NCBI RefSeq assembly: GCF_003122385.1
Contig: NZ_CP029255.1
Coordinates: forward strand, 1,116,001 to 1,180,000
Source of the DNA: Flavobacterium crocinum
GTDB lineage: Bacteria; Bacteroidota; Bacteroidia; Flavobacteriales; Flavobacteriaceae
Direction: 5' to 3'
Length of the DNA stretch: 64,000 bases
Shown here in pieces: positions 2,661 through 16,130 of this stretch (its first letter is position 1; every line of letters starts with the position of its first letter). The notes under the pieces are model-generated. The model had not been told where the DNA came from, did no database searches, and worked only from the letters and a program-made list of their open reading frames with translations. The translations under genes and the position numbers were made by a program.

Positions 2661-4784
2661 ATGACTAATATTCAATTCATTGCCAAGACTGTTCAGGCAC
2701 CGGCAGTAAGTATTCAAAACACAGTAAAATTATTAGAAGAAGACTGTACAATTCCGTTTATTTCCCGATATAGAAAAGACAGTACAGGAAACCTGGATGA
2801 AACTGTTATTGAGCAGATTGCAAAACTTCAAAAAGATTATGATACGCTTGTAAAACGTAAAGAAGCCGTTCTAAAATCTATTGAAGAGCAAAAAGCACTT
2901 ACACCAGAATTGAAGAAAAAAATCGAAGAAAGTTTCGATTTACAAGAGATAGAAGATTTTTACCTTCCTTATAAAAAAAAGAAAAAAACAAAGGCAGATG
3001 TGGCGCGCGAATTTGGTTTAGAACCTTTAGCCAAACTGATTATATCTGAAAGCGATGCTGATATCGATTTTATTTCGACGCAGTATATTAATGAAAATGT
3101 TATTAACGAAGAGGCAGCAATTCAGGGCGCACGAGATATTGTAGCCGAATGGATTAACGAAAACATCTATGTTCGTAAACAACTTCGTAGATTATATCAG
3201 CGTAAAGCGACGATTGCTACAAAAGTGGTGAAAAAGAAAGCTGAAGAAGAAGGCGCACAGAAATTCAACCAGTATTTTGATTGGGAAGAACCGTTGACAA
3301 AAGCACCGGCTCACCGTTTATTAGCGATGCTTCGTGCAGAAAATGAAGGTTTTATCAAAATGAAAATCGATGTTGATATTGATGATGCTTACGATGTTAT
3401 CGATGAAATTATCATTAAAAAGCAAAATAATACAACAGCTCATTTGCAATTAGCAATTGAAGACAGTTACAAACGTTTATTGAATCCGGCAATTGGAAAC
3501 GAAACGTTACAGGAAGCAAAAGCAAAAGCCGATGCTAATTCCATTCAGGTTTTTGCTAACAATTTAGGACAGTTATTATTGGCTCCGCCATTGGGAGAAA
3601 AACGTATTCTGGCAATCGATCCAGGATTTAGAAGTGGTTGTAAAGTAGTTTGTCTGGACGAAAAAGGAGATTTGTTATACAATGAAACCATTTATCCGCA
3701 CGCGCCTCAAAATGAGGAATCAATGGCGATCAAGAAAATCCGTTCGATGGTAAATGCGTATCAAATTGATGCGATTTCTATTGGAAACGGAACAGCTTCT
3801 CGTGAAACGGAATTTTTCATTAAAAAAATTGCTTTCGATAAACCTATTCAGGTTTTTGTGGTTTCTGAGGCAGGAGCTTCTGTTTATTCCGCTTCAAAAA
3901 TTGCAAGAGAAGAATTTCCAAATTATGATGTAACCGTTCGTGGTTCTGTTTCTATCGGAAGAAGACTTTCAGATCCATTAGCCGAATTGGTAAAAATTGA
4001 TCCGAAAGCGATTGGAGTAGGACAGTATCAGCATGATGTTGACCAGACGAAACTTAAAGAAGAATTGGACAGTACTGTAATCCGTTGTGTAAACTCGGTT
4101 GGAATTAATATCAACACAGCAAGTAAGCACTTATTAAGTTATGTGAGTGGAATAGGAGAGAAGCTGGCAGAAAATATAGTACAATACCGTTCTGAAAATG
4201 GGCCTTTTGAAGACAGAAAACAGCTGAAAAAAGTGCCTCGTTTAGGAGACAAAGCGTATCAGCAGGGAGCGGCATTTATTAGAATTACAAATGCTAAGAA
4301 TCCGTTGGATAATTCGGCTGTGCATCCGGAGGCATATCCGGTTGTGGAAAAGATGGCGAAGGATTTGAATATTTCTTTGAATGAATTAATTGCAAATAAG
4401 GAGAAAACAGCGCTTATTAAGCCCGAAAAGTATGTAACACCTGAAATTGGTTTATTAACGCTGAAAGACATCATAAAAGAGCTTGAAAAGCCCGGATTAG
4501 ATCCACGAAAGTCAGCTAAGGTTTTTGAATTTGATGCGAATGTAAAATCGATCAAAGACTTGAAAACCGGAATGATTTTGCCGGGAATTGTTAATAACAT
4601 CACTAACTTTGGTTGTTTTGTTGACATCGGAATCAAAGAAAGTGGATTGGTTCATATTTCTCAGTTAAAATCGGGTTATGTGAGTGATGTAAATGAAGTG
4701 GTAAAATTGCATCAGCATGTTGATGTGAAAGTGACTGAGGTTGATGAAGACAGAAAGAGAATTCAGCTGACGATGATACTTTAA
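2661..4784 (+). CDS. tex: Tex-family RNA-binding protein
   Basis: A 707-residue Tex/YhgF homologue, a conserved cytoplasmic nucleic-acid-binding protein. Domains in order: helical Tex N-terminal region (1-~315, including the RKDSTGNLDE segment), an RNase-H-like YqgF domain starting at LAIDPGFRSG (~320-450), helix-hairpin-helix segments (NINTASKHLL...VSGIGEKLA, ~480-560), and a C-terminal S1 RNA-binding domain (~635-707, GMILPGIVNNITNFGCFVDIG region). The full length is slightly shorter than the ~770 residues of proteobacterial Tex. It is monocistronic and followed by a strong hairpin terminator. Members are linked to transcription and RNA quality control, but the precise role here is not shown by the sequence. 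Confidence 0.93.
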   Translation: MTNIQFIAKTVQAPAVSIQNTVKLLEEDCTIPFISRYRKDSTGNLDETVIEQIAKLQKDYDTLVKRKEAVLKSIEEQKALTPELKKKIEESFDLQEIEDFYLPYKKKKKTKADVAREFGLEPLAKLIISESDADIDFISTQYINENVINEEAAIQGARDIVAEWINENIYVRKQLRRLYQRKATIATKVVKKKAEEEGAQKFNQYFDWEEPLTKAPAHRLLAMLRAENEGFIKMKIDVDIDDAYDVIDEIIIKKQNNTTAHLQLAIEDSYKRLLNPAIGNETLQEAKAKADANSIQVFANNLGQLLLAPPLGEKRILAIDPGFRSGCKVVCLDEKGDLLYNETIYPHAPQNEESMAIKKIRSMVNAYQIDAISIGNGTASRETEFFIKKIAFDKPIQVFVVSEAGASVYSASKIAREEFPNYDVTVRGSVSIGRRLSDPLAELVKIDPKAIGVGQYQHDVDQTKLKEELDSTVIRCVNSVGININTASKHLLSYVSGIGEKLAENIVQYRSENGPFEDRKQLKKVPRLGDKAYQQGAAFIRITNAKNPLDNSAVHPEAYPVVEKMAKDLNISLNELIANKEKTALIKPEKYVTPEIGLLTLKDIIKELEKPGLDPRKSAKVFEFDANVKSIKDLKTGMILPGIVNNITNFGCFVDIGIKESGLVHISQLKSGYVSDVNEVVKLHQHVDVKVTEVDEDRKRIQLTMIL

Positions 4785-5753: not shown

Positions 5754-7157
5754 TTATTTCAAAATAACTTTTTTAGTAACACTTTTAAAATCATCATTGG
5801 ATATTTTTACGAAATAAACTCCTGATGCCTGATTGGTTAAATTGATTTCTGTATTTTCTGAAATTGATTTTTGTTGATGAATAACACTTCCGGAAGAGGA
5901 AATTACTGAAATAGTCGATTGCTGAGGCGCGCTAATTGTGATTCGATCAGCGCTCGGATTTGGGAAAAGCGTAACAGTAGATTTTTCAATATCGAAATTT
6001 TCATTGGACAGAGTAGCAGTTGGGGGCAGATAAAAATTACCGGTTAATAAAAAGGAGTATAATGTTTTTAGAGTATGATTAAAGTAGCTGTTTGGTTCGT
6101 CGAGGTTTTTTAAATCTGTGTAAGAAGCATCTAAATGCGCCTGATTTTCACCAGCCATAGCTGCGCAGGCAAAATCGCCGACAAATGTAGCATTGTGCCA
6201 CTGCCCGTTTACGGTTCCGTTTTGATTGTAACCGTCTTTAATATTGGCAGTTCCGCCAAGATTGATGCGAACAAAATCGGATGATTTTTTAGCATAGGTT
6301 TTAGCATCAGCTGTTCCGTACCAAACATAATCAACAGCAATTCGCCAAGGTGTTCTGGCTGCGTCGTAAGAATATGTTTTTCCTTCTTTGTTGTATCCGT
6401 TAGTTATGGCGATAGGAGTATAATTTCCGGAAGCTTCGCACCAATCTGATACTAGTCCGCCAACAGCATTATTTTGTGTCAAATTATTGTTGATAACCGT
6501 ATAAGCTTTTGCAGCAATCTGATTCCAAAAGACAATATCATTTGTAAAAACGCCAAAAGCGCGGTAATAAGCAGGAGAGAAATAAGAAGGATTTGTGATT
6601 GAACTTCCACCAAATTGATCGCCAGGTTTTAAAACATAAGTATTGGCTTCAACTTCGTAATTTTTTATGGCAGTAATTAAAGCTGTTGCATCATTTTTGT
6701 AATTGATAGTTCCAGTACTTGTCCATTGATAATCGGCAACAATAAGAGCGAATGCAGCATCGAGTTCAGCATCTGTGGCTCCGTTTTGTCCAATAGTTCC
6801 GGAACAGCCGCTAATTTTCCAGTTCATAACTTTGTTAGTGTTTACATTGTCTTTGTAATACAGCCAAAGTCCGTCGAAAAGTGTTTTGTCTGCTTTATAA
6901 GCAGAAAGCAGCATACCATAAGCAATTCCTTCAGAAACCGTTTCAGACGAGTTGTCAAATTTAATACGGTAACGTCCGTTAGAACAGTATTCTACAAAAT
7001 TGATTTTCCAGGTATCATAATTGGTTTGAGCATCCTGACTGCTTCTGGGGACAGCCATAAGTCCGTTTCCATACACCTTGTTGGCAGGAAAAGGCTGTGT
7101 TTGTGATTTACTTTCTGCGGCTAGCAGAAGAGCAATCACGAAAAATAGGTTTTTCAT
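5754..7157 (-). CDS. Secreted GH8 glycoside hydrolase with T9SS sorting domain
   Basis: A 467-residue protein. Signal peptide ~1-18; glycoside hydrolase family 8 domain ~22-370; C-terminal type A T9SS sorting domain ~390-467 (begins LFPNPSADRITI, ends KKVILK). The GH8 signature SEGIAYGM includes E76, the expected general acid, and GATDAELDAAFAL includes D129, a conserved substrate/catalytic-site acid. GH8 enzymes cleave beta-1,4 linkages in glucans, xylans or chitosan; the exact substrate cannot be read from sequence. The protein should be exported by Sec, then moved through the outer membrane by the T9SS, of which SprE (encoded at 42067) is a component. It has its own transcript, since a terminator separates it from the upstream adhesin gene. 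Confidence 0.9.
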   Translation of the reverse strand: MKNLFFVIALLLAAESKSQTQPFPANKVYGNGLMAVPRSSQDAQTNYDTWKINFVEYCSNGRYRIKFDNSSETVSEGIAYGMLLSAYKADKTLFDGLWLYYKDNVNTNKVMNWKISGCSGTIGQNGATDAELDAAFALIVADYQWTSTGTINYKNDATALITAIKNYEVEANTYVLKPGDQFGGSSITNPSYFSPAYYRAFGVFTNDIVFWNQIAAKAYTVINNNLTQNNAVGGLVSDWCEASGNYTPIAITNGYNKEGKTYSYDAARTPWRIAVDYVWYGTADAKTYAKKSSDFVRINLGGTANIKDGYNQNGTVNGQWHNATFVGDFACAAMAGENQAHLDASYTDLKNLDEPNSYFNHTLKTLYSFLLTGNFYLPPTATLSNENFDIEKSTVTLFPNPSADRITISAPQQSTISVISSSGSVIHQQKSISENTEINLTNQASGVYFVKISNDDFKSVTKKVILK

Positions 7158-7204: not shown

Positions 7205-7241
7205 AAAAAATCCTAAACTACAATTTGTAGTTTAGGATTTA
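7205..7241 (-). terminator. Terminator of the adhesin operon
   Basis: A 16-bp inverted repeat (AAATCCTAAACTACAA / TTGTAGTTTAGGATTT, 7208-7240), which on the minus strand is followed by a run of eight T (7203-7210). It lies 21 bases after the adhesin stop. Confidence 0.8.
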
Positions 7242-7260: not shown

Positions 7261-10200
7261 TTATTTTTTCAAAATAAATTTCTGAGCTTTAAATGTATTA
7301 TGATCAGTATTTTGAATTAAGTAAACACCATCGGCAAGATCTTCTAAATGGATTGTATTAAGACTATCTGCATTTAGATGTACTGATTTTACCAGTTTTC
7401 CGGCAGCATCTATTATGATATATTTTCCGTTGTATTTAGTAACAATATTTAAAACTCCACGACTTGGAACAGGATACATTTTAAATTCTGAAACGTTGAA
7501 ATCATCCAGACCTAAAGTAGTTACATTGATACAATCAGAAGTAACTGTACATCCTGCAACTGTAATATCAACTTTATATTCTCCTACGACTGAAGGCGTA
7601 AAAGATTGATTGGTTTCAGTTGTTAATAATGTATTTGGACATTTATACCACTGATATGTAGCTCCAGATTGATTTGCAGTTAATATTCCTGAATTTAAAT
7701 TTACTGTTTTTAGAATTGCAGAAGAATTGTTAATAGTTAATGCTAAAGTTTTAGTATCACAACCAACAGTGTAATCATAATTTCCAGAAGATGTATAAGT
7801 AATACCATTCACCGGCCATGTATAACTGTCGCAAGCCGTTTCTGTTTGTGTAGAACTTGTAGAATTAGTAATGGTCAATGCTAAAGTTTTGGTATCACAA
7901 CCAACAGTGTAGTCATAATTTCCAGAAGATGTATAAGTAATACCATTTACCGGCCATGTATAACTGCTACAAGCAGATTCTGTTTGTGTAGAACTTGTAG
8001 AATTAGTAATGGTCAATGCTAAAGTTTTGGTATCACAACCAACAGTGTAGACATAATTTCCGGAAGCGGTATATTTTACACCATTTACTGGCCATGTATA
8101 ACTGTCACAAGCGGTTTCTGTTTGTGTTGAACTTGTAGAATTAGTAATGGTTAATGCCAAAGTTTTGGTATCACAACCAACAGTGTAGACATAATTTCCG
8201 GAAGCGGTATATTTTACACCATTCACTAGCCAAGTATAGCTATCACAAGCCGTTTCTGTTTGTGTTGAATTTGTAGAATTTGTAATAGTTAATACTAAAG
8301 TTTTGGTGTCACAACCTACTTTATGTGTGTAATTTCCGGAAGCAGTATATTTTATACCATTTACTGGCCATGTATAACTGTCACAAGCCGTTTCTGTTTG
8401 TGTTGAGCTTGTAGAATTAGTAATGGTTAAAGCTAAAGTTTTGGTGTCACAACCTACTTTATGTGTGTAATTTCCGGAAGCAGTATATTTTATACCATTT
8501 ACTGGCCATGTATAACTGTCACAAGCCGTTTCTGTTTGTGTTGAGCTTGTAGAATTAGTAATGGTTAAAGCTAAAGTTTTGGTATCACAACCAACAGTGT
8601 AGTCGTAATTTCCGGAAGTAGTATATTTTACACCATTCACTGACCATGTATAACTGTCACAAGCGGTTTCTGTTTGCGTAGAACTTGTAGAATTAGTGAT
8701 GGTTAAAGCTAAAGTTTTGGTGTCGCAACCTACTTTATGTGTGTAATTTCCGGAAGCGGTATATTTTACACCATTTACTGGCCATGTATAACTGTCACAA
8801 GCCGTTTCTGTTTGTGTTGAGCTTGTAGAATTAGTAATAGTTAAAGCTAAAGTTTTGGTATCACAACCAACAGTGTAGTCGTAATTTCCGGAAGTAGTAT
8901 ATTTTACACCATTCACTGACCATGTATAACTGTCACAAGCGGTTTCTGTTTGCGTAGAACTTGTAGAATTAGTGATGGTTAAAGCTAAAGTTTTGGTGTC
9001 ACAACCTACTTTATGTGTGTAATTTCCGGAAGCGGTATATTTTACACCATTTACAGGCCATGTATAACTGTCACAAGCGGCTTGTGTTTCAGTAGGGGAC
9101 GAGGTTGAAGGAGTAATCGTTAAATTTAATTTTTTAGTATCACATCCCACAACGGTTGTATAGGTTCCAGAACTAGTATAAGTAGTGCCATTTGCACTCC
9201 AGGTATAAGAATCACAAGCAACTATAGTTTCTGGTGCTGAAGTAGTAGATGGAGTTATAGTTAAATTCAAAGTTTTAGTATCACATCCAATCACTGTTGT
9301 ATAGGTTCCGGAATTAGTATAAGTAGTTCCGTTTGCACTCCAGGTGTAAGAATCACATGCAATTATAGTTACCGGTGGCGATGTTGTTGACGGAGTTCCC
9401 GTTACCGTTTTTACCAAAACTCTGTCACTTGCACAATAAGCTGTTTCACAAGCAACACAATAAGTAGTATTATTTGCTGTGGGAGTTGCTGTAACTGATG
9501 CTCCTGTTGCAAAACTTGTTCCTCCGCTCATTGCAGTATACCAGGTAGCAGTTGTACCAAGCGGACAAGTTGCATTTAAATTAACTGCTGTACTTCCCAG
9601 ACAAGTAATATTTTGTGTATCTGTAGTAGCTGTAGCATTTCCTGGTTTAATTGAAGTTGTTGTAATATTAGAATTTACAGTTGAGAAATTAGAACCACTA
9701 ACAGTTGCCTGATTGGTAACAGCACAAGTATTTTGAGGTAACGTACCAGCGGCATTAATTGTCGCACTAAAAGTAATTACAGTAGATTTTCCGGCAGCTA
9801 AAGTAAATGGTCCAGCAGAAAGTGTTGTTGCAGTTGCATTTACAGCTGTACTTTTTGCAGTTACTGAATTATCAGTTATAGCAGGATTGTTAACAGTTGA
9901 TTCTGCAGCAGGTTTTGTTTCCTCCTGAATATCGTTTTGAGGAGCCATTTTTGAAGCAGTTCCGTTATCTGGAAGGGTAACAGTTCCGGATACTATTTTT
10001 CCGGTATAAGGAAACTCATGTAATGCAGTTCCAATGGTATTATTATTAAGATCCCAAAACGTTTTTAATTTTGCAGAATTATCCGTGTTGTTAGCTCCGG
10101 GAACAAAAGTTCCTGTACCCTGCAAAATTACCTGAGAATTTGCACTTTGCGACATTACATCAAATGTTGCTGCTACTCCTGTTGCTGTATTTGTAGTATT

Positions 10201-12516
10201 TCCGCTAATATTTGCTGCATTTATCATTGTACTTAAACTATTATCTGCAGTAGCTACAATACCAAGATTAGCGTAAGCATTATTAACAACATTAATAGTA
10301 TTGTTTTTTATAGTAGCATCTATTCTTGCAGAACCCGCAATGTTATTATCATTCGCATCAGAATAAACACCATAATTACTTGCATTGTTAATAATGTTAT
10401 TTGAGATTTCTGTTATATGTTTGGCATTTCCACTAACGGCAACATAAATTCCGTTAGAGGTTGTCCCAAGACCAGATGCGTCGATAATGTTGTTATTTAT
10501 ACGGCCTTTCATTGTTCCTGATCCCTGATGACCAACGCTACAGGAATATACACCATTATAACTTGCTTTTACTGTATTATTTATAATGTTGTAGTTAACA
10601 GTTGCCGAACCATTTGCCTGTAAAGATAATCCGTTACTTCCTGGACTTGTTGTTGCCGCATTTATAATGTTAGCATCTGTAGAAGGTGTATTTCCGCCTA
10701 TTTGGACATTATTATCAGAAGATCCATCGAAGTTTAAAGTTAATCCTGTTGTTTTTGGATTAGAAAAATCATTTTTCTTAAAAACTAAAGTGTTTTTTGA
10801 AGTTCCTCTTGCCTGAAAAATAAAGTTACTGTCACCATTTGATCTATTGAAAGAGTTTTTAAATTGAGAGCCTGTTACTGTCAGATTTAGAGTCGGATTT
10901 TGAGAAATTCCATTATATCCAAAAAAACCTCTTCCCCAGGAATCATTAACATTAGTATTTGTTATAGAACAGGTTCCTTTCAATTCAAGGGCAAATATTC
11001 CACCGACATTTACATTACCTCCATTTGCACTTCCGCAACCATTGATAGTACTATTACTTAAAACAAAATTGTTAACATCATTTAAATTTATTCCCATTGA
11101 GTTTGTAGTACCTGAAACAGCAATATTATCTAATGTAACTCCTCCTGATATTGTTTTAAAATGTAGAGCTGCATAAGAATCTGTATTATTATTTTGAGGA
11201 TTTGGAACATTTCCATTTACTCCAGAAATACTTGAATTAGTAAAATTCATGTTTTTAAGAATGACATTTGAACATGAAATAAACTCGGCACCTCTTTGTT
11301 GAATATTTTGTATTGTACCTCCGGAACCTGCTGTATTTCCAGAACCAGTAATCTGAAAACTTCCCGGAGAATTAACAGAAATTCCTTTTACAGGGTTTCC
11401 GTTTGCTGAAATACTTGTAAAAATACAATCGATAGTTCCAGTTCCTGTGATATTTACTGCCTGAAGATTTGTTGCATTAATAGAGGCATTTTTAATTTTT
11501 AAAGCGCCTACATTTGATCCAGACAAAGTTCCGGTCATCGCTACAGCCTGAATATCATTATTCGATTTTAAACTAATACCGGCAATAGTAGGATTTGCTC
11601 CACCAGTAGAAGGTAATGAATTGCTGTATGTTGGTACAGTAAGATTTAATATAGAAGCTAAACTTGAAGTTGCTCCCTGACCAATTACTTTTTGATTATC
11701 ATTTAAAGCTAAAGATCCGGTAACTGTTCCCGAGTAAATAAAAATAGGATTTGCACTTGAACCTGTAATACTACTTAGTTGTTTATAAGGTGTTGCCAAT
11801 GTTCCGTTTCCTGGAGATGCAGCTGCATTATTTACAAAGATTATAGGAGTACTTACGGTAATATTCACTGTTGCAGTTGAGGTTTTCCCGTTAGTTGAGG
11901 TTATAGTATAAGTAAAACTATCTGAACCGGAATATGCCGCAGTTGGATTATAAGTAAAAGAACCATTTGAAGCCAAGTTAACAGTACCATTAGTTGGATT
12001 GGTTAAAATAGTTGCAGTTAAAGCAGTTGCGTCCGGACTCACATCATTTGCCAAAACACCTCCTGCAGCATCTACAGTAATTCCAACATTTCCGATGCAG
12101 GAATAAGAATTATTGTTAGCAACTGGTGTTGCTTTAAATGAATTTGCTACTAAGGTTAAATTAGAATCTAAAATATCCTGAAAAGTCATCCCCAGAGCAT
12201 CATCTGCACCCGTATTTGCAATCGTAATAGTATAATCTAACTGAGAACCAGGCTGTGGATTTCCACCGCCATTTACGGCTACAACATTATTCACAGTGAC
12301 AGTTGCAGCAACAGCAGAAGAAGTACTTGAATTTTCTTTAACTTCAGTTTTTTTATTTCTATTATTGACTTTTTTATCAATAAAAGTTGTTTCAGCTTTT
12401 GCTAAACTTTCAACTATTGGAGCAACAACATTTTTCTTAATAATATTATTGTACTTCATTCCAAAACTTAGAAATCCTAATAATACTATTACAACTAAGA
12501 GTTTGTTATTTTTCAT
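7261..12516 (-). CDS. Giant T9SS-secreted repeat adhesin (1751 residues)
   Basis: A 1751-residue surface protein. In order: an N-terminal membrane/signal segment (~5-20); a DUF11-like domain (~75-125, GSQLDYTITIANTGADDALG); a cadherin-like Ig domain (~130-220, GVLANDVSPDATALT...SGSDSFTYTI); a long Asn/Ile-rich region (~225-850) with the repeating N-N-x-I pattern of a right-handed parallel beta-helix; a linker; an Ig-like domain with GTTATWYTAMSGGTSF (~965-1040); twelve tandem 46-residue repeats (~1050-1600); and a C-terminal T9SS sorting domain (MYPVPSRGVLNIV to QKFILKK). Each repeat carries two Cys (ACDSYTW and GCDTKTL). It lies 24 bases after the DUF6916-like gene, so it is probably the last gene of a seven-gene operon. 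Role inferred: adhesion or surface interaction. Confidence 0.88.
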   Translation of the reverse strand: MKNNKLLVVIVLLGFLSFGMKYNNIIKKNVVAPIVESLAKAETTFIDKKVNNRNKKTEVKENSSTSSAVAATVTVNNVVAVNGGGNPQPGSQLDYTITIANTGADDALGMTFQDILDSNLTLVANSFKATPVANNNSYSCIGNVGITVDAAGGVLANDVSPDATALTATILTNPTNGTVNLASNGSFTYNPTAAYSGSDSFTYTITSTNGKTSTATVNITVSTPIIFVNNAAASPGNGTLATPYKQLSSITGSSANPIFIYSGTVTGSLALNDNQKVIGQGATSSLASILNLTVPTYSNSLPSTGGANPTIAGISLKSNNDIQAVAMTGTLSGSNVGALKIKNASINATNLQAVNITGTGTIDCIFTSISANGNPVKGISVNSPGSFQITGSGNTAGSGGTIQNIQQRGAEFISCSNVILKNMNFTNSSISGVNGNVPNPQNNNTDSYAALHFKTISGGVTLDNIAVSGTTNSMGINLNDVNNFVLSNSTINGCGSANGGNVNVGGIFALELKGTCSITNTNVNDSWGRGFFGYNGISQNPTLNLTVTGSQFKNSFNRSNGDSNFIFQARGTSKNTLVFKKNDFSNPKTTGLTLNFDGSSDNNVQIGGNTPSTDANIINAATTSPGSNGLSLQANGSATVNYNIINNTVKASYNGVYSCSVGHQGSGTMKGRINNNIIDASGLGTTSNGIYVAVSGNAKHITEISNNIINNASNYGVYSDANDNNIAGSARIDATIKNNTINVVNNAYANLGIVATADNSLSTMINAANISGNTTNTATGVAATFDVMSQSANSQVILQGTGTFVPGANNTDNSAKLKTFWDLNNNTIGTALHEFPYTGKIVSGTVTLPDNGTASKMAPQNDIQEETKPAAESTVNNPAITDNSVTAKSTAVNATATTLSAGPFTLAAGKSTVITFSATINAAGTLPQNTCAVTNQATVSGSNFSTVNSNITTTSIKPGNATATTDTQNITCLGSTAVNLNATCPLGTTATWYTAMSGGTSFATGASVTATPTANNTTYCVACETAYCASDRVLVKTVTGTPSTTSPPVTIIACDSYTWSANGTTYTNSGTYTTVIGCDTKTLNLTITPSTTSAPETIVACDSYTWSANGTTYTSSGTYTTVVGCDTKKLNLTITPSTSSPTETQAACDSYTWPVNGVKYTASGNYTHKVGCDTKTLALTITNSTSSTQTETACDSYTWSVNGVKYTTSGNYDYTVGCDTKTLALTITNSTSSTQTETACDSYTWPVNGVKYTASGNYTHKVGCDTKTLALTITNSTSSTQTETACDSYTWSVNGVKYTTSGNYDYTVGCDTKTLALTITNSTSSTQTETACDSYTWPVNGIKYTASGNYTHKVGCDTKTLALTITNSTSSTQTETACDSYTWPVNGIKYTASGNYTHKVGCDTKTLVLTITNSTNSTQTETACDSYTWLVNGVKYTASGNYVYTVGCDTKTLALTITNSTSSTQTETACDSYTWPVNGVKYTASGNYVYTVGCDTKTLALTITNSTSSTQTESACSSYTWPVNGITYTSSGNYDYTVGCDTKTLALTITNSTSSTQTETACDSYTWPVNGITYTSSGNYDYTVGCDTKTLALTINNSSAILKTVNLNSGILTANQSGATYQWYKCPNTLLTTETNQSFTPSVVGEYKVDITVAGCTVTSDCINVTTLGLDDFNVSEFKMYPVPSRGVLNIVTKYNGKYIIIDAAGKLVKSVHLNADSLNTIHLEDLADGVYLIQNTDHNTFKAQKFILKK
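7715..9368 (-). repeat. Twelve tandem 138-bp coding repeats in the adhesin gene
   Basis: Twelve units of 46 codons each. The consensus begins ACDSYTWPVNGVKYTASGN and continues with Y-(THK/DYT/VYT)-VGCDTKTL and a Ser/Thr-rich linker. Units 1-2 are divergent (SANGTTYT). Units 3-8 largely alternate between a P...THK type and an S...DYT type, which suggests duplication of a two-unit (276-bp) block. The DNA is nearly identical between units. Confidence 0.9.
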
Positions 12517-12540
12517 TTTTTTTGCTTTAAATTGGCCTAA

Positions 12541-12840
12541 TTAAGAAAATACTGCTTCATATTTCATCCCTACTTCATCAAAACCAAGTGGAGTAAGAAA
12601 TAATTCTAAATTGCCTTCTTCGGGATGTATAATAGTAAAAATACCCTGTTCGTAATATTCGTTTTTTTGCTGTGTACGAAAAACTATAGAAAATGGATTT
12701 CTTTCTAATGGAGAATAACTGTTGAATTCGGTCACCGAAATTAATTCCGCGTCAAGCTGAATTTCTTCCGAAATTTTAATAATAAATGTTTTATTGAGTA
12801 ATGAATTAAAGTTATTTACAGAGAGTAAAGATATATCCAT
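12541..12840 (-). CDS. DUF6916-like small protein in tail-collar operon
   Basis: A 99-residue cytoplasmic-type protein without a signal peptide. Features include an acidic body, FNSLLNKTFII near the N-terminus and IHPEEGNLELFLTPLG near the C-terminus. I believe it belongs to DUF6916, a small family found beside tail-collar (Mdp-like) genes, but I could not test this. It sits 22 bases after the GNAT gene and 24 bases before the adhesin gene. No function is known. Confidence 0.65.
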   Translation of the reverse strand: MDISLLSVNNFNSLLNKTFIIKISEEIQLDAELISVTEFNSYSPLERNPFSIVFRTQQKNEYYEQGIFTIIHPEEGNLELFLTPLGFDEVGMKYEAVFS

Positions 12841-12862
12841 ATAATTTAGTTAGTCGTTATTT

Positions 12863-13360
12863 TTAATTCGTTGCATTCCATTGCATTAAATGGTAAACTC
12901 CATTTGTTTCACTTATTTTTTGAAATCCTAATCTTTTATATAATTCCATAGCGGGATTAAAACTTTCAACATGAATCGTAACATTCAAATTGTTGCTGGC
13001 TGCTTTTTTCAAAATTTCATTTAAAATAGAACTGCCAATATTTTTATTCCGCCATTCTGGCAGAATTGTAATGTCTATAATACGAATGCCCTTTTGTTCA
13101 AAAAAGAAATCAATATATAATCTTCCAATTGTTACGTTCTCTTTTTCAATTATATAGAATTTTCCGCCCAGATAATTTTTCTGATAATACTCGTGCTGAG
13201 CAGAAAACTGATGTTCTATAAAAAGTCTTTTTTGTTCATCGTTCCAGTTTGTTCCTTTTTCTAATTCTTCTTTACGGGTGCTTCCATATATTTCACAAAG
13301 TACAGGAAGATCGTAGGCCTGAATGTTACGAAGAGCAATATCTTTTATTTTTAATTCCAA
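12863..13360 (-). CDS. GNAT-family N-acetyltransferase
   Basis: A 165-residue single-domain GNAT protein. The acetyl-CoA-binding motif A is readable as ITILPEWRNKNIGSSILNEI (~residues 95-115), followed by an NPAMELYKRLGF C-terminal motif. The start is TTG at 13360, because the in-frame upstream codons run directly into the stop of the preceding gene (12 bases away). It is embedded in the tail-collar operon, so its substrate may be one of the operon products, but this is inference. Confidence 0.82.
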   Translation of the reverse strand: MELKIKDIALRNIQAYDLPVLCEIYGSTRKEELEKGTNWNDEQKRLFIEHQFSAQHEYYQKNYLGGKFYIIEKENVTIGRLYIDFFFEQKGIRIIDITILPEWRNKNIGSSILNEILKKAASNNLNVTIHVESFNPAMELYKRLGFQKISETNGVYHLMQWNATN

Positions 13361-13372
13361 AATCCAATTATT

Positions 13373-13888
13373 TTATCCTCGTGGTGGGTAAATTCCCTGA
13401 AGAGCAATACAAAAATTCATTGTCAAATATGGCATCATATTATTATGAGGTGTACTTCCTCCAGTAGGATTTATACTAGTGGCACTCATATCAGTATTTG
13501 AGGCACCTGTAGAATAAACTCTAAGAGGATTACCTCGCCCTAAACTATTATTTGTTGGAGTGATTGACTGTGAATTTGAAGTTGCAGCCATTAAAGAATG
13601 AGTGTGGTATGGAATTTCAGATTCTAATAAAGTAACCGTTTCAGATCCTCCGGTTTCCCCCAAGTCGTGTAAAGATAACCCAGGGCCTTGTCCAGGATGC
13701 ATTGGTGTTCTTCCCTGTAAATCCGGCAAAGCAAAGGTACTCTTTCCGTCACCGCCATAAGTGGTTCCTAATAATGAAAAGAGAGCGGTTTGTTGTGATA
13801 ATGGCAAAAGTTGCCCATTACAAAAAGCCCAGCCTCTTGGTGGGAAATTAAATGAAAATATGCGTATTTCGGCCACAAAAGGATCCAT
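13373..13888 (-). CDS. Tail-collar domain protein (Mdp-like), paralogue 3
   Basis: About 171 residues from the ATG at 13888, of the phage tail-collar/microcystin-dependent-protein type. Conserved blocks: FPPRGWAFCNGQLLPLSQQ, LLGTTYGGDGKSTFALPDLQ, GRTPMHPGQG, a glycine-rich central loop, and the C-terminal MMPYLTMNFCIALQGIYPP. An upstream in-frame ATG (13957) would overlap the preceding gene and lacks family similarity, so I use 13888. It has no signal peptide. It is the third of three adjacent paralogues; the three share the blocks but differ in the central variable stretch. Confidence 0.85.
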   Translation of the reverse strand: MDPFVAEIRIFSFNFPPRGWAFCNGQLLPLSQQTALFSLLGTTYGGDGKSTFALPDLQGRTPMHPGQGPGLSLHDLGETGGSETVTLLESEIPYHTHSLMAATSNSQSITPTNNSLGRGNPLRVYSTGASNTDMSATSINPTGGSTPHNNMMPYLTMNFCIALQGIYPPRG

Positions 13889-13934
13889 AATATATCGTTT
13901 TATTATATTAAAAAATAGTGTAAAATTTGATTTT

Positions 13935-14438
13935 CTAGGTTTGAGGAAATATTCCAAACAATGAAATAATAAAATTTACACACAAATAAGGTTGAAAATT
14001 TTCATGTGGCTGACTTCCACCTGTAGCTGCAATGGATGATCCATTTAAAGGAGTTGCAGGAGTTGCACTTGAAAACATTTTATTTCCTGGCGGATTAGTA
14101 CTCAACAGAGAACCTGCAGGACTTGCAGTATCTGCTAAATTTGTTGTTGCCAGTAGTGCGTGATTGTGAGCCGGAATCTGATTTACTGTAAGAGTGACTT
14201 GTTCAGCACCCCCGGTTTCTGCCAGTATAAAGCCCTGACCAGAATGAATAGGAATTCTGCCTTGTAAATCAGGTAATGCAAATGTACTTTGGCCATCGCC
14301 TCCATAAGTAGTACCAATTAATTGAAATAGAGTTTCATTCTCAGAAATAGGAAGTAATTGTCCTTGACAAAACATCCATCCGGCAGGGGCAAAATTTCCT
14401 GCAAACATTCTGATTTCACCAACGTAAGGTTGTGCCAT
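13935..14438 (-). CDS. Tail-collar domain protein (Mdp-like), paralogue 2
   Basis: 167 residues with the same architecture as its two neighbours: FAPAGWMFCQGQLLPISENE, LIGTTYGGDGQSTFALPDLQ, GRIPIHSGQG, a Thr/Ala/Pro-rich middle, and QPYLCVNFIISLFGIFP at the end. It lies 23 bases after paralogue 1. No phage structural genes occur nearby, so this is a chromosomal Mdp-type gene and not a prophage tail gene. Confidence 0.87.
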   Translation of the reverse strand: MAQPYVGEIRMFAGNFAPAGWMFCQGQLLPISENETLFQLIGTTYGGDGQSTFALPDLQGRIPIHSGQGFILAETGGAEQVTLTVNQIPAHNHALLATTNLADTASPAGSLLSTNPPGNKMFSSATPATPLNGSSIAATGGSQPHENFQPYLCVNFIISLFGIFPQT

Positions 14439-14461
14439 TTTTTAATTTTTACAATTAATAA

Positions 14462-14971
14462 TTAAGTTGCTGATGGAAAAATTCCTTGAAGGGCAATACA
14501 AAAATTCAGGGTTAAAAAAGGCTGCATGTTTAAATGTGCCTGGCTACCACCAACATTTGTTAGCGTTCCGGAACTCATAGCTGTTAAATTTTGATTTTGC
14601 CCACTATAAACAAGATTAGGAATAGCATTAGCTAAAACGACTGTATTATCCGGAATATTTGTAGCAGCAAGATCTGTTTTAGCTTTTAAAGAATGAGTAT
14701 GTTTTGGTATCTCAGAAATAGTTAAGGTATGGGCTTGTTCACCTCCTTTTTCTCCTAAAGTATGACCATTTCCAAAATGGATAGGAGTTCTGCCACGTAA
14801 ATCAGGTAATGCGAAGTTAACTCGTCCGTCTCCACCAAATGTAGTTCCTAATAAGGAAAACAATCCCTGATTTTGATTTATAGGTAAAAGTTGTCCATTG
14901 CACAATGCCCATCCTTTTGGAGCAAAGTTAAAAGACATGATACGGGTCTCGGCTAAAAATGGTTCTGCCAT
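14462..14971 (-). CDS. Tail-collar domain protein (Mdp-like), paralogue 1
   Basis: 169 residues. Blocks: FAPKGWALCNGQLLPINQNQ, LLGTTFGGDGRVNFALPDLR, GRTPIHFGNG, EIPKHTHSLKA, and a C-terminal FLTLNFCIALQGIFPS. The family occurs as phage tail-tip domains and as chromosomal triplets in many bacteria. The chromosomal forms have been called Mdp after a microcystin-dependent cyanobacterial gene, and their role is unresolved. It lies 32 bases after the Tat-signal gene. Confidence 0.87.
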   Translation of the reverse strand: MAEPFLAETRIMSFNFAPKGWALCNGQLLPINQNQGLFSLLGTTFGGDGRVNFALPDLRGRTPIHFGNGHTLGEKGGEQAHTLTISEIPKHTHSLKAKTDLAATNIPDNTVVLANAIPNLVYSGQNQNLTAMSSGTLTNVGGSQAHLNMQPFLTLNFCIALQGIFPSAT

Positions 14972-15003
14972 AATAGAATTATTTTTTTAAGATAAAATAG
15001 TGA

Positions 15004-15669
15004 TTAAACAAAAGAAGATTGGACAACAAGACTATGTTGAGAGATTACTTCTTTTTGATATACAACATTATTACCTTCTTTTATGATAATTTTTGTTGTT
15101 GTTTGTTCAGAATCTAAGATAGTTTGCAGATATACACTTCCTTTTCTTGTATCAAAACCGTATGGATTCAATTGCTGAGAAGGAGCAGGAAATAAATAAT
15201 GTGATAAATTAACCTCATTACTATATATTTTTAAATCGCTCATAGCAACGGTAATAGCTTCCAAATCAAATCCGGATAAAGATTTTAACGATTTCCATTC
15301 TCCATTTGAATTTTTCCCAAAACACAATAGAACATCATCTACTTTTCCGGTAGTTTCGGTATGAAGATGTATTGGAAACATTTTAAGAAGACCATCTGAA
15401 GAACTGTAGCAATAGTTTCCAGAAGAAGCATAACCTGTTTTTTCCCAGTTTACAATAGATTTTTTATAGCAATCTGCTAATGATTGATCTAAAAGAAAAG
15501 CATCAAAAAAAGTTAATTTGGAGAATTTAGAAAGAATATTATCTTCCTTATTTTTAGAATTAGAGAAACTCTCTAAAGTGTTCTGAGCAACTAGTGAACT
15601 GCAAAACAAAGTTGACGCACTTACGAATCCAACATTTTTTATAAAGTTTCTTCGCTTTAAATCGATCAT
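15004..15669 (-). CDS. Tat-signal protein leading the tail-collar operon
   Basis: About 221 residues from the ATG at 15669 (an upstream in-frame TTG at 15675 is possible). The N-terminus has a twin-arginine motif, LKRRNFIKNVG, then a hydrophobic stretch and an AQ cleavage site, as in Tat substrates exported folded. The mature part is not a family I can name. It contains a YASSGNYCYSSSDG stretch and an HLHTETTG segment. It is the first gene of the minus-strand block that ends in the giant adhesin, and it lies ~220 bases downstream of tatA. Confidence 0.72.
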   Translation of the reverse strand: MIDLKRRNFIKNVGFVSASTLFCSSLVAQNTLESFSNSKNKEDNILSKFSKLTFFDAFLLDQSLADCYKKSIVNWEKTGYASSGNYCYSSSDGLLKMFPIHLHTETTGKVDDVLLCFGKNSNGEWKSLKSLSGFDLEAITVAMSDLKIYSNEVNLSHYLFPAPSQQLNPYGFDTRKGSVYLQTILDSEQTTTKIIIKEGNNVVYQKEVISQHSLVVQSSFV

Positions 15670-15841: not shown

Positions 15842-15873
15842 AACCCCAAACTACCTAAGTAATTTGGGGTGTT
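15842..15873 (-). terminator. Terminator of tatA
   Basis: ACCCCAAAcTAC-ctaa-GTAaTTTGGGGT hairpin with a T-rich tract on the minus strand. It lies 22 bases after the tatA stop and is of the same hairpin family as 4842 and 5707. Confidence 0.75.
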
Positions 15874-15894: not shown

Positions 15895-16074
15895 TTATTT
15901 AGTTTCTTCCTCTTGTTTTTTAGAAGCAGCAGGTTGATCGTCTTTAGCAGCGTTTTTAAATTCCTTAATTCCACTTCCTAAACCTTTCATTAATTCTGGA
16001 ATTTTTTTACCTCCAAAAAGTAATATCACAATACCTACGATAACAAGGATTTCTGTAAGACCTAATCTTCCCAT
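15895..16074 (-). CDS. tatA: TatA/E-family twin-arginine translocase subunit
   Basis: A 59-residue TatA: a short N-terminal transmembrane helix ([19 protein letters not shown]) with the usual Gly hinge, then the amphipathic helix [18 protein letters not shown] and a charged tail. It forms the pore-like component of the Tat system in the inner membrane. The start is the ATG at 16074 (MGRLGLTE). An in-frame extension to 16125 is ruled out because a minus-strand promoter box (16123-16130) covers it. It is divergent from the coiled-coil membrane gene at 16289. The neighbouring Tat-signal protein is a plausible substrate. Confidence 0.93.
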
Positions 16075-16122
16075 GACTATTATATTTAATGCCGAAGCAA
16101 ATTGTTTTCTATAATTATTCCG

Positions 16123-16130
16123 CAAAGGTA
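16123..16130 (-). promoter_or_regulatory. Bacteroidetes -7 element of tatA
   Basis: TACCTTTG on the minus strand, 48 bases before the tatA ATG. It fixes the start by excluding the longer reading frame. Confidence 0.6.

Follow-up and report, generated by a model that had tools for sequence, protein, structure and literature searches.

The window analysed here, a stretch of 64,000 nucleotides from Flavobacterium crocinum (contig NZ_CP029255.1, positions 1,116,001 to 1,180,000 of the forward strand), carries an operon of seven minus-strand genes that run from 15666 to 7261 and encode, in this order, a protein with a signal for twin-arginine translocation (Tat), three proteins with a phage tail-collar domain (ColA, ColB and ColC), a GNAT N-acetyltransferase, a DUF6916 protein and a giant secreted protein with a sorting domain of the type IX secretion system (T9SS). 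The comparison of gene neighbourhoods gives good support to the view that this operon is one instance of a conserved module spread over many phyla. Chromosomal collar triplets are labelled as phage parts and no agreed role was found for them; no published description of the module was found in the literature searched. Both the assembly of the collars into a hetero-complex and the coupling of this complex to the giant protein are probable. We give about an equal chance of being right or wrong to the complete reading, in which a widespread surface-fibre module takes its flavobacterial form in this operon, and the collar complex rides the Tat pathway and then partners the giant protein exported by the T9SS. 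The genes are as follows (positions of the window; aa, amino acids).

15004..15666, minus strand: Tat-signal protein with conserved RRxF, 220 aa, encoded at the start of the operon and proposed as Tat carrier of the collar complex
14462..14971, minus strand: ColA, clade A, 169 aa, without visible signal peptide, PF07484 at 1.5e-26
13935..14438, minus strand: ColB, clade B, 167 aa, without visible signal peptide, PF07484 at 2.2e-29
13373..13888, minus strand: ColC, clade C, 171 aa, without visible signal peptide, PF07484 at 1.2e-27
12863..13360, minus strand: GNAT N-acetyltransferase, 165 aa, probably module-specific, PF00583 at 7.9e-12
12541..12840, minus strand: DUF6916 protein, leaderless, 99 aa, PF21880 at 1.7e-21
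7261..12516, minus strand: giant immunoglobulin-like (Ig)/beta-helix/repeat protein with a T9SS sorting domain, 1751 aa, Big_9 at 2.4e-17 and Por_Secre_tail at 4.2e-8

A collar module conserved across phyla

Two sets of loci were compared. By similarity to a single query at least 580 collar loci were confirmed in named genomes, of which the best 80 make up the first set. The second consists of 70 neighbourhoods found by DUF6916 hits, the remaining hits falling within these neighbourhoods or within loci that had been included before. Hidden Markov models of the collar, DUF6916 and GNAT families were rebuilt from the hits in these same loci. The sets overlap in two places (L162 is a repeat of L108, and L171 of L071), and each pair is contained in the tree of 88 loci described below. 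Genes were called as longest open reading frames (ORFs), by which some genes are missed: L021, counted with two collars, has three, and some of the two-collar loci are therefore probably triplets.

Three collar genes were counted in 52 of the best 80 loci, two in 10 and one in 18, and a collar gene was present in 63 of the 70 neighbourhoods found by DUF6916. For 37 three-collar and 12 one-collar loci of the collar-found set more than 4 kilobases (kb) of sequence were available on either side. The 37 triplets have a GNAT gene within 3 kb in 34 cases and a DUF6916 gene within 3 kb in 28; a protein of at least 700 aa is encoded on the same strand within 1.5 kb in 25 and within 3.5 kb in 30 of them, against a background of 67 in 260 random blocks (same strand, within 1.5 kb) taken from the outer parts of the loci. 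The 12 one-collar loci have a GNAT gene once, a DUF6916 gene never and a giant gene five times. The original prediction had named the gene order in relatives as a check, and all seven genes were found in identical order in each of the five Flavobacterium loci examined (L021-L024, L078).

The collar-found records come from several kinds of Proteobacteria, Acidobacteria, Chloroflexi, Paenibacillus, Actinobacteria such as Nocardioides, Myxococcales, Planctomycetota, Bacteroidetes, Hydrogenedentes and others, with phyla assigned partly from general taxonomy. Rhizobia are among the collar-bearing bacteria, and Deinococcus appears among the plasmids. In five plasmid records that were examined, the genes are labelled three times as 'tail fiber protein', and further as an N-acetyltransferase and as large Ig-domain, YDG-domain or hypothetical proteins. 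Of the dedicated surface apparatus that had been proposed for this operon, the part that is supported is a conserved gene set with a giant secreted protein as a member; this set is no flavobacterial speciality, since the module occurs in many phyla. The T9SS is merely the local exit route of the giant protein.

Seven of the DUF6916 neighbourhoods are without a called collar (L166, L168, L192, L198, L199, L202 and L220); L198 overlaps the collar-bearing L203 on the same contig. An extra gene of 386-494 aa was seen in or beside the collar cluster of L228 (7081-8241), L227 (13071-14555), L072 (11578-12831), L197 (8564-9829) and L029 (11099-12283), with a Tat-like start in the last three. It is labelled as an ABC transporter substrate-binding protein in Deinococcus ficus and as hypothetical in Aminobacter.

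Three collar lineages and a probable hetero-complex

The three collars of the window reach 92.6, 101.6 and 96 bits with PF07484 (curated cut-off 24). A tree was calculated from 264 collars of 88 three-collar loci, the window and the two repeated loci included, and the clades A, B and C were chosen for their best fit to a single member in each locus. Three main clades emerged: B with 84 loci and A with 78, each with one copy per locus, and C with 73 loci of one copy and two of more. Exactly one A, one B and one C are present in 72 of the 88 loci, and these are ordered ABC, as in the window, in 54, BAC in 14 and otherwise in four. The collars had been introduced as three paralogues; three PF07484 proteins are indeed encoded, and they are not loose paralogues, since they fall into three separate clades.

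In phage collar fibres the collar domain forms homotrimers. Three diverged copies of a homotrimer-forming domain that stay together suggest that the A, B and C collars form an obligate hetero-complex. The identity matrices of A, B and C, compared over 69 non-redundant loci, correlate with r 0.86-0.89, those of GNAT and DUF6916 with r 0.55, and 0 of 500 permutations reached any of the correlations; such correlations can arise from common inheritance alone. Three results limit this part of the proposal. The clade supports are 0.862, 0.476 and 0.594, the low value being that of clade A; strict reciprocal one-to-one matching by identity was obtained in only 1755 of 3828 locus pairs; and the identities of GNAT (r 0.31-0.37) and DUF6916 (r 0.39-0.43) follow those of the collars only loosely. 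Raw identity assigns the collars to A, B and C less clearly than the tree does.

One may ask whether joint transfer has left the gene order behind as a neutral trace, with no joint function of the genes. The distribution of DUF6916 is patchy, which speaks for such a history: the family was found in 2 of 60 relatives and in 13 of 395 sampled genomes of the same phylum, in 34 of 249 genomes of the phylum of Lysobacter L044, in 10 of 149 for Sulfidibacter L039 and in 9 of 246 for Intrasporangium L103 (the centre genome counted in each case). The retention of one A, one B and one C in so many loci of many phyla and the natural fusions between the components described below make this explanation very improbable.

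The giant secreted protein as a probable partner of the collars

Three parts of the giant protein were located.

9937..11853, minus strand: beta-helix core, residues 222-860, from BLASTP to the Lysobacter giant and from profile matches
7723..9089, minus strand: tandem array of 138-base (46-aa) repeats, 9.9 copies, 89% matches
7273..7479, minus strand: C-terminal T9SS sorting domain, residues 1680-1748, PF18962 at 33.8 bits, cut-off 27

The sorting domain is also recognised by TIGR04183 (27.3 bits, cut-off 23), and the translocon component SprA is present in the genome (SprA_N, 4.1e-135). In its Ig-like domains, its repeats and its type A sorting domain the protein resembles the T9SS adhesins of Flavobacterium. 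Unlike in these, its beta-helix core is also found in the giants of bacteria such as Lysobacter, which are not known to have a T9SS: by BLASTP, residues 344-800 are 31% identical to the Lysobacter giant over 480 columns (5e-30) and residues 178-363 are 31% identical over 208 columns (4e-14). A profile of residues 222-860, trained on direct hits, matched 21 of the 80 collar-found and 15 of the 70 DUF6916-found loci (36 of 150); at that threshold no such core was found in the other loci. All matches lie within 1.4 kb of collars and, except in L085, on the same strand, a nearness that is partly given by construction, the loci having been cut around collars or DUF6916. Among 23 giants that were scanned, Big_9 was found in 16, tandem-95 repeats in 17, a T9SS tail in seven and IPTL-CTERM in two. 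Judged by these domains, the giants have a similar build and differ in their sorting signals. The giant protein of the window looks like a specific partner of the collars.

The partnership is not evident everywhere. Twelve of the 37 full-flank triplets have no same-strand giant within 1.5 kb, and a large gene stands on the opposite strand in L051, L057, L076, L082, L085, a Comamonas and a Paenibacillus plasmid. These loci would fit a collar complex that is secreted as a lectin-like binder, as are the collar domains of phage fibres, and acts independently of the giant protein, the genes being only co-regulated surface functions. We consider this improbable in view of a beta-helix core that is homologous between phyla and stands, within the limit just given, close to the collars in its 36 loci.

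The 46-aa repeats carry paired cysteines, and about two copies of a 141-base relative come after the array. Among six Flavobacterium loci the length of the giant protein ranges from 1238 to 1842 aa, and the number of repeats may therefore vary. Two module giants of Actinomycetota (L103, 3787-8913; L224, 12419-16666) have a twin-arginine-like start.

Gene fusions, export signals and the Tat protein

The product of the first gene is a predicted Tat substrate, as it carries a conserved twin-arginine motif and TatC is present in the genome (1.0e-63 at G000:C1:313097).

15640..15651, minus strand: twin-arginine motif RRNF, sequence MIDLKRRNFIKN, R R x F invariant in alignment A6

Searches of Pfam, NCBIfam and PHROGs gave no family match for this protein at E <= 0.01. 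Its homologues number 89, the window's own included, of which 84 have RRxF within the first 45 residues; for homologues of at least 215 aa the share is 84 of 85. R6, R7 and F9 are invariant across 13 aligned members with identities down to 21%. In direct searches the organism-named homologues of the Tat protein and of the DUF6916 protein belong to Flavobacterium or its family. Distant relatives of the Tat protein were seen beside collar triplets in L026 (12433-13074, 24% identity) and L085 (8116-8766, 21%).

No signal peptide was seen on the three collars of the window, as had been noted from the sequence before. Elsewhere signal-like segments are joined to collars directly, signals being called from simple patterns and by eye and not by SignalP. 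In L033 and L035 a single protein consists of DUF6916, a twin-arginine segment and a collar, in that order; by eye, a twin-arginine segment directly precedes the collar in L113 (Hymenobacter), and Sec-like starts lie ahead of it in L063, L067 and L079. A twin-arginine segment before the domain was flagged on 24 of 129 DUF6916 proteins, of which L088 looks false and L202 has no nearby collar. By a strict Tat pattern, 12 of 102 DUF6916 proteins near collars are positive compared to 8 of 707 other genes more than 4 kb away (odds ratio 11.7); for other genes within 1.5 kb the count is 18 of 438 compared to the same 8 of 707 (odds ratio 3.7). Further fusions join the remaining small parts. L206 (2995-4674) encodes collar, collar and GNAT in one frame of 559 aa and L191 (3398-4240) GNAT and DUF6916 in 280 aa, both in genomes of the same phylum as Lysobacter L044. 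In these fusions and those with Tat segments, every small part of the module is linked to another one.

The original prediction had left open how leaderless collars would meet the adhesin. The probable answer, drawn from the fusions and the signal-bearing relatives, is the Tat pathway. Among other proteins there are complexes that pass through Tat although only one member has a signal (PMC9251779), the signal-less partner being carried along. We regard such hitchhiking as the likeliest export route in this operon, at roughly even odds, because of the Tat fusions, the signal-bearing relatives, the near-invariant motif of gene 1 and the hitchhiker precedent.

A number of observations speak against this route. 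For the Tat protein no reliable structural model was obtained, the predicted local distance difference test (pLDDT) value being 36. A signal-like start is present in six of 35 one-collar loci only, those listed above, and many triplet loci have no visible Tat partner. Other Tat-like genes, counted by a lenient pattern, are no more frequent beside triplets (10 of 37 loci) than in the background (65 of 260 blocks), and of the 18 nearby strict-Tat genes five are of the Flavobacterium Tat family and a few are doubtful. DUF6916 follows the Tat signal in L031 and precedes it in L033 and L035, which makes its side of the membrane ambiguous. Finally, the L206 fusion fits an action in the cytosol, since a GNAT needs acetyl-CoA. 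The fusions of GNAT speak for a cytosolic stage, which is compatible with Tat export of the collars and equally with a purely cytosolic machine. In the latter case, collars, GNAT and DUF6916 would stay in the cytoplasm and fold or modify the giant protein before its export, and the Tat protein would be a separate envelope partner. The collars without signal peptide, the L206 and L191 fusions and the triplets without visible Tat partner all agree with such a machine; the collars joined to Tat-like segments in L033, L035 and L113 or to Sec-like segments in L063, L067 and L079, and the Tat-like segments on DUF6916 proteins, do not. We judge it to be rather unlikely.

The GNAT is probably specific for the module: with the GNAT of Lysobacter L044 as the one query, the window's protein was found at 5.4e-24 and the next site in the genome at 0.003. 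That the acetyltransferase decorates the adhesin, as had been suggested, is unsupported; the natural fusions join it to collars (L206) and to DUF6916 (L191). The DUF6916 protein (PF21880 at 76.5 bits, cut-off 27) is predicted by AlphaFold2 to be a six-stranded barrel (mean pLDDT 91.2). Flavobacterium johnsoniae, a species with good genetics, also has a recorded DUF6916 protein belonging to this group.

Mechanistic model

We propose that ColA, ColB and ColC fold in the cytoplasm as an obligate hetero-complex, in the simplest case a trimer A1B1C1. The GNAT and the leaderless DUF6916 protein would act on this complex in the cytoplasm, possibly by N-terminal acetylation of the collars, the start of which is conserved as M-[A/S]-[E/Q/D]-P-[F/Y], or by control of folding. 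The folded complex would then cross the inner membrane via Tat, carried by the gene 1 protein, and the giant protein would leave through Sec and then the T9SS. Outside the cell the collar complex may cap or anchor the giant fibre. The contact between collars and giant and the target of acetylation are the weakest steps of this model. In its widest form the model describes an unnamed surface apparatus that many phyla of Gram-negative and Gram-positive bacteria have retained as a unit, in which a phage-derived heterotrimer, possibly acetylated and exported folded by Tat, sits on a giant beta-helix fibre; this we put forward tentatively, as a possibility and not as our expectation. If the model is true, it gives a function to many mislabelled genes, shows the change of a phage part into a heteromeric cell-surface device, and adds a structural cargo to those of Tat.

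Relation to known systems

The nearest known relatives of the collars are the tail-collar fibres of phages, such as the minor tail proteins of Microbacterium phages, which share the PF07484 domain and are similar over nearly the whole protein. ColB is 40.6% identical to a phage protein over 92% (the best among 30 of 376 records), and the best match in PHROGs is phrog_9116 (3.1e-29). Unlike the phage fibres, the collars of the module are free-standing proteins of about 165-175 aa which form an A/B/C set without other tail genes and adjoin GNAT, DUF6916 and a giant secreted protein. COG4675, 'microcystin-dependent protein' (Mdp), is one annotation name for such bacterial collar proteins. This label, which appears in a soil metaproteome (PMC5579227), is not a described system, and it is likened to the module by name only. 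In Rhizobium a collar domain is present in RhiB, which is encoded in the quorum-sensing operon rhiABCD, an operon connected with plant interaction (PMC13133039, PMC6969944, PMC4149787). That operon has one collar gene, in contrast to the module, and RhiA and RhiC are without a Pfam domain according to PMC13133039; the likeness is by description only. Hitchhiker export of the hydrogenase type is known for a cofactor enzyme and is here proposed for a structural complex. In Candidatus Solibacter usitatus a group of tail-collar paralogues belongs to the groups for which positive selection was indicated (PMC3174227).

A regulated cluster of similar content has been reported from Acaryochloris marina MBIC11017, where AM1_3684, 3686 (acetyltransferase), 3687 and 3688-3690 (tail collar) belong to the most strongly induced genes in low far-red light, with log2 white/far-red values of -3.2 to -4.0 by RNA-seq, and four of the genes do so in strain MU13 as well (PMC11633204). 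By analogy, this case shows three collars, an acetyltransferase and two neighbours under joint regulation. The same MU13 list contains a tail sheath and a baseplate gene (PMC11633204), induced by the same shift of light, which together with the similarity of phage minor tail proteins to ColB raises the question whether the collars are the fibres of a contractile injection system or of a decayed prophage encoded elsewhere. The F. crocinum genome, 5.88 Mb in one contig, has no tail-sheath gene (PF04984, 0 matches; the same search was positive in three of 14 control genomes), and the three collars and the one DUF6916 gene are its only matches to those families. For DUF6916 no PHROG match was obtained, and one query remained without a match in 50,697 phage records. 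Insofar as a sheath is needed, this explanation is contradicted in the present genome, and we hold it to be highly unlikely. The view that the operon is hardly a prophage remnant is borne out by the genome; among the ORFs between 5000 and 18500 no recognisable phage genes were found, the GH8 gene being the only one outside the operon that was scanned against Pfam.

Operon layout and neighbouring genes

As had been described, the seven genes lie on one strand with short gaps between them (32, 23, 46, 12, 22 and 24 bases along the operon) and are bounded by terminators on both sides. One sets the operon apart from tatA, and the other ends it before a GH8-T9SS gene.

15843..15870, minus strand: terminator between tatA and the operon, 12-pair stem and T-run
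7208..7240, minus strand: terminator 3' of the giant gene, 15-pair stem and T-run

Between positions 6000 and 17000 nine terminator-like sites were counted compared to 5.5 +/- 2.8 in shuffled sequence, and the claim of terminators therefore rests on the two long stems and not on the number of sites. The promoter pattern of the Bacteroidota type (TTG, 17-23 bases, TAnnTTTG) was not found before the Tat gene; on the operon strand between the two terminators its sole full match lies inside ColA, at 14863. The Tat gene starts with ATG at 15666. For ColC the longest ORF begins with TTG, but alignment with ColA and ColB fits an ATG at 13888. The frame of the GNAT starts with TTG at 13360.

Directly upstream of the operon, beyond the terminator, lies tatA (15895-16125), which was identified from its sequence and not by a family search. 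A tatA match was obtained at the same position in L022, L023, L024 and L078, and none in L021. Directly after the terminator at the other end follows a gene for a GH8 glycosidase with a T9SS tail (5754-7157). It is absent from this place in L021 and L023, and a GH8 homologue stands there in L022 and L024.

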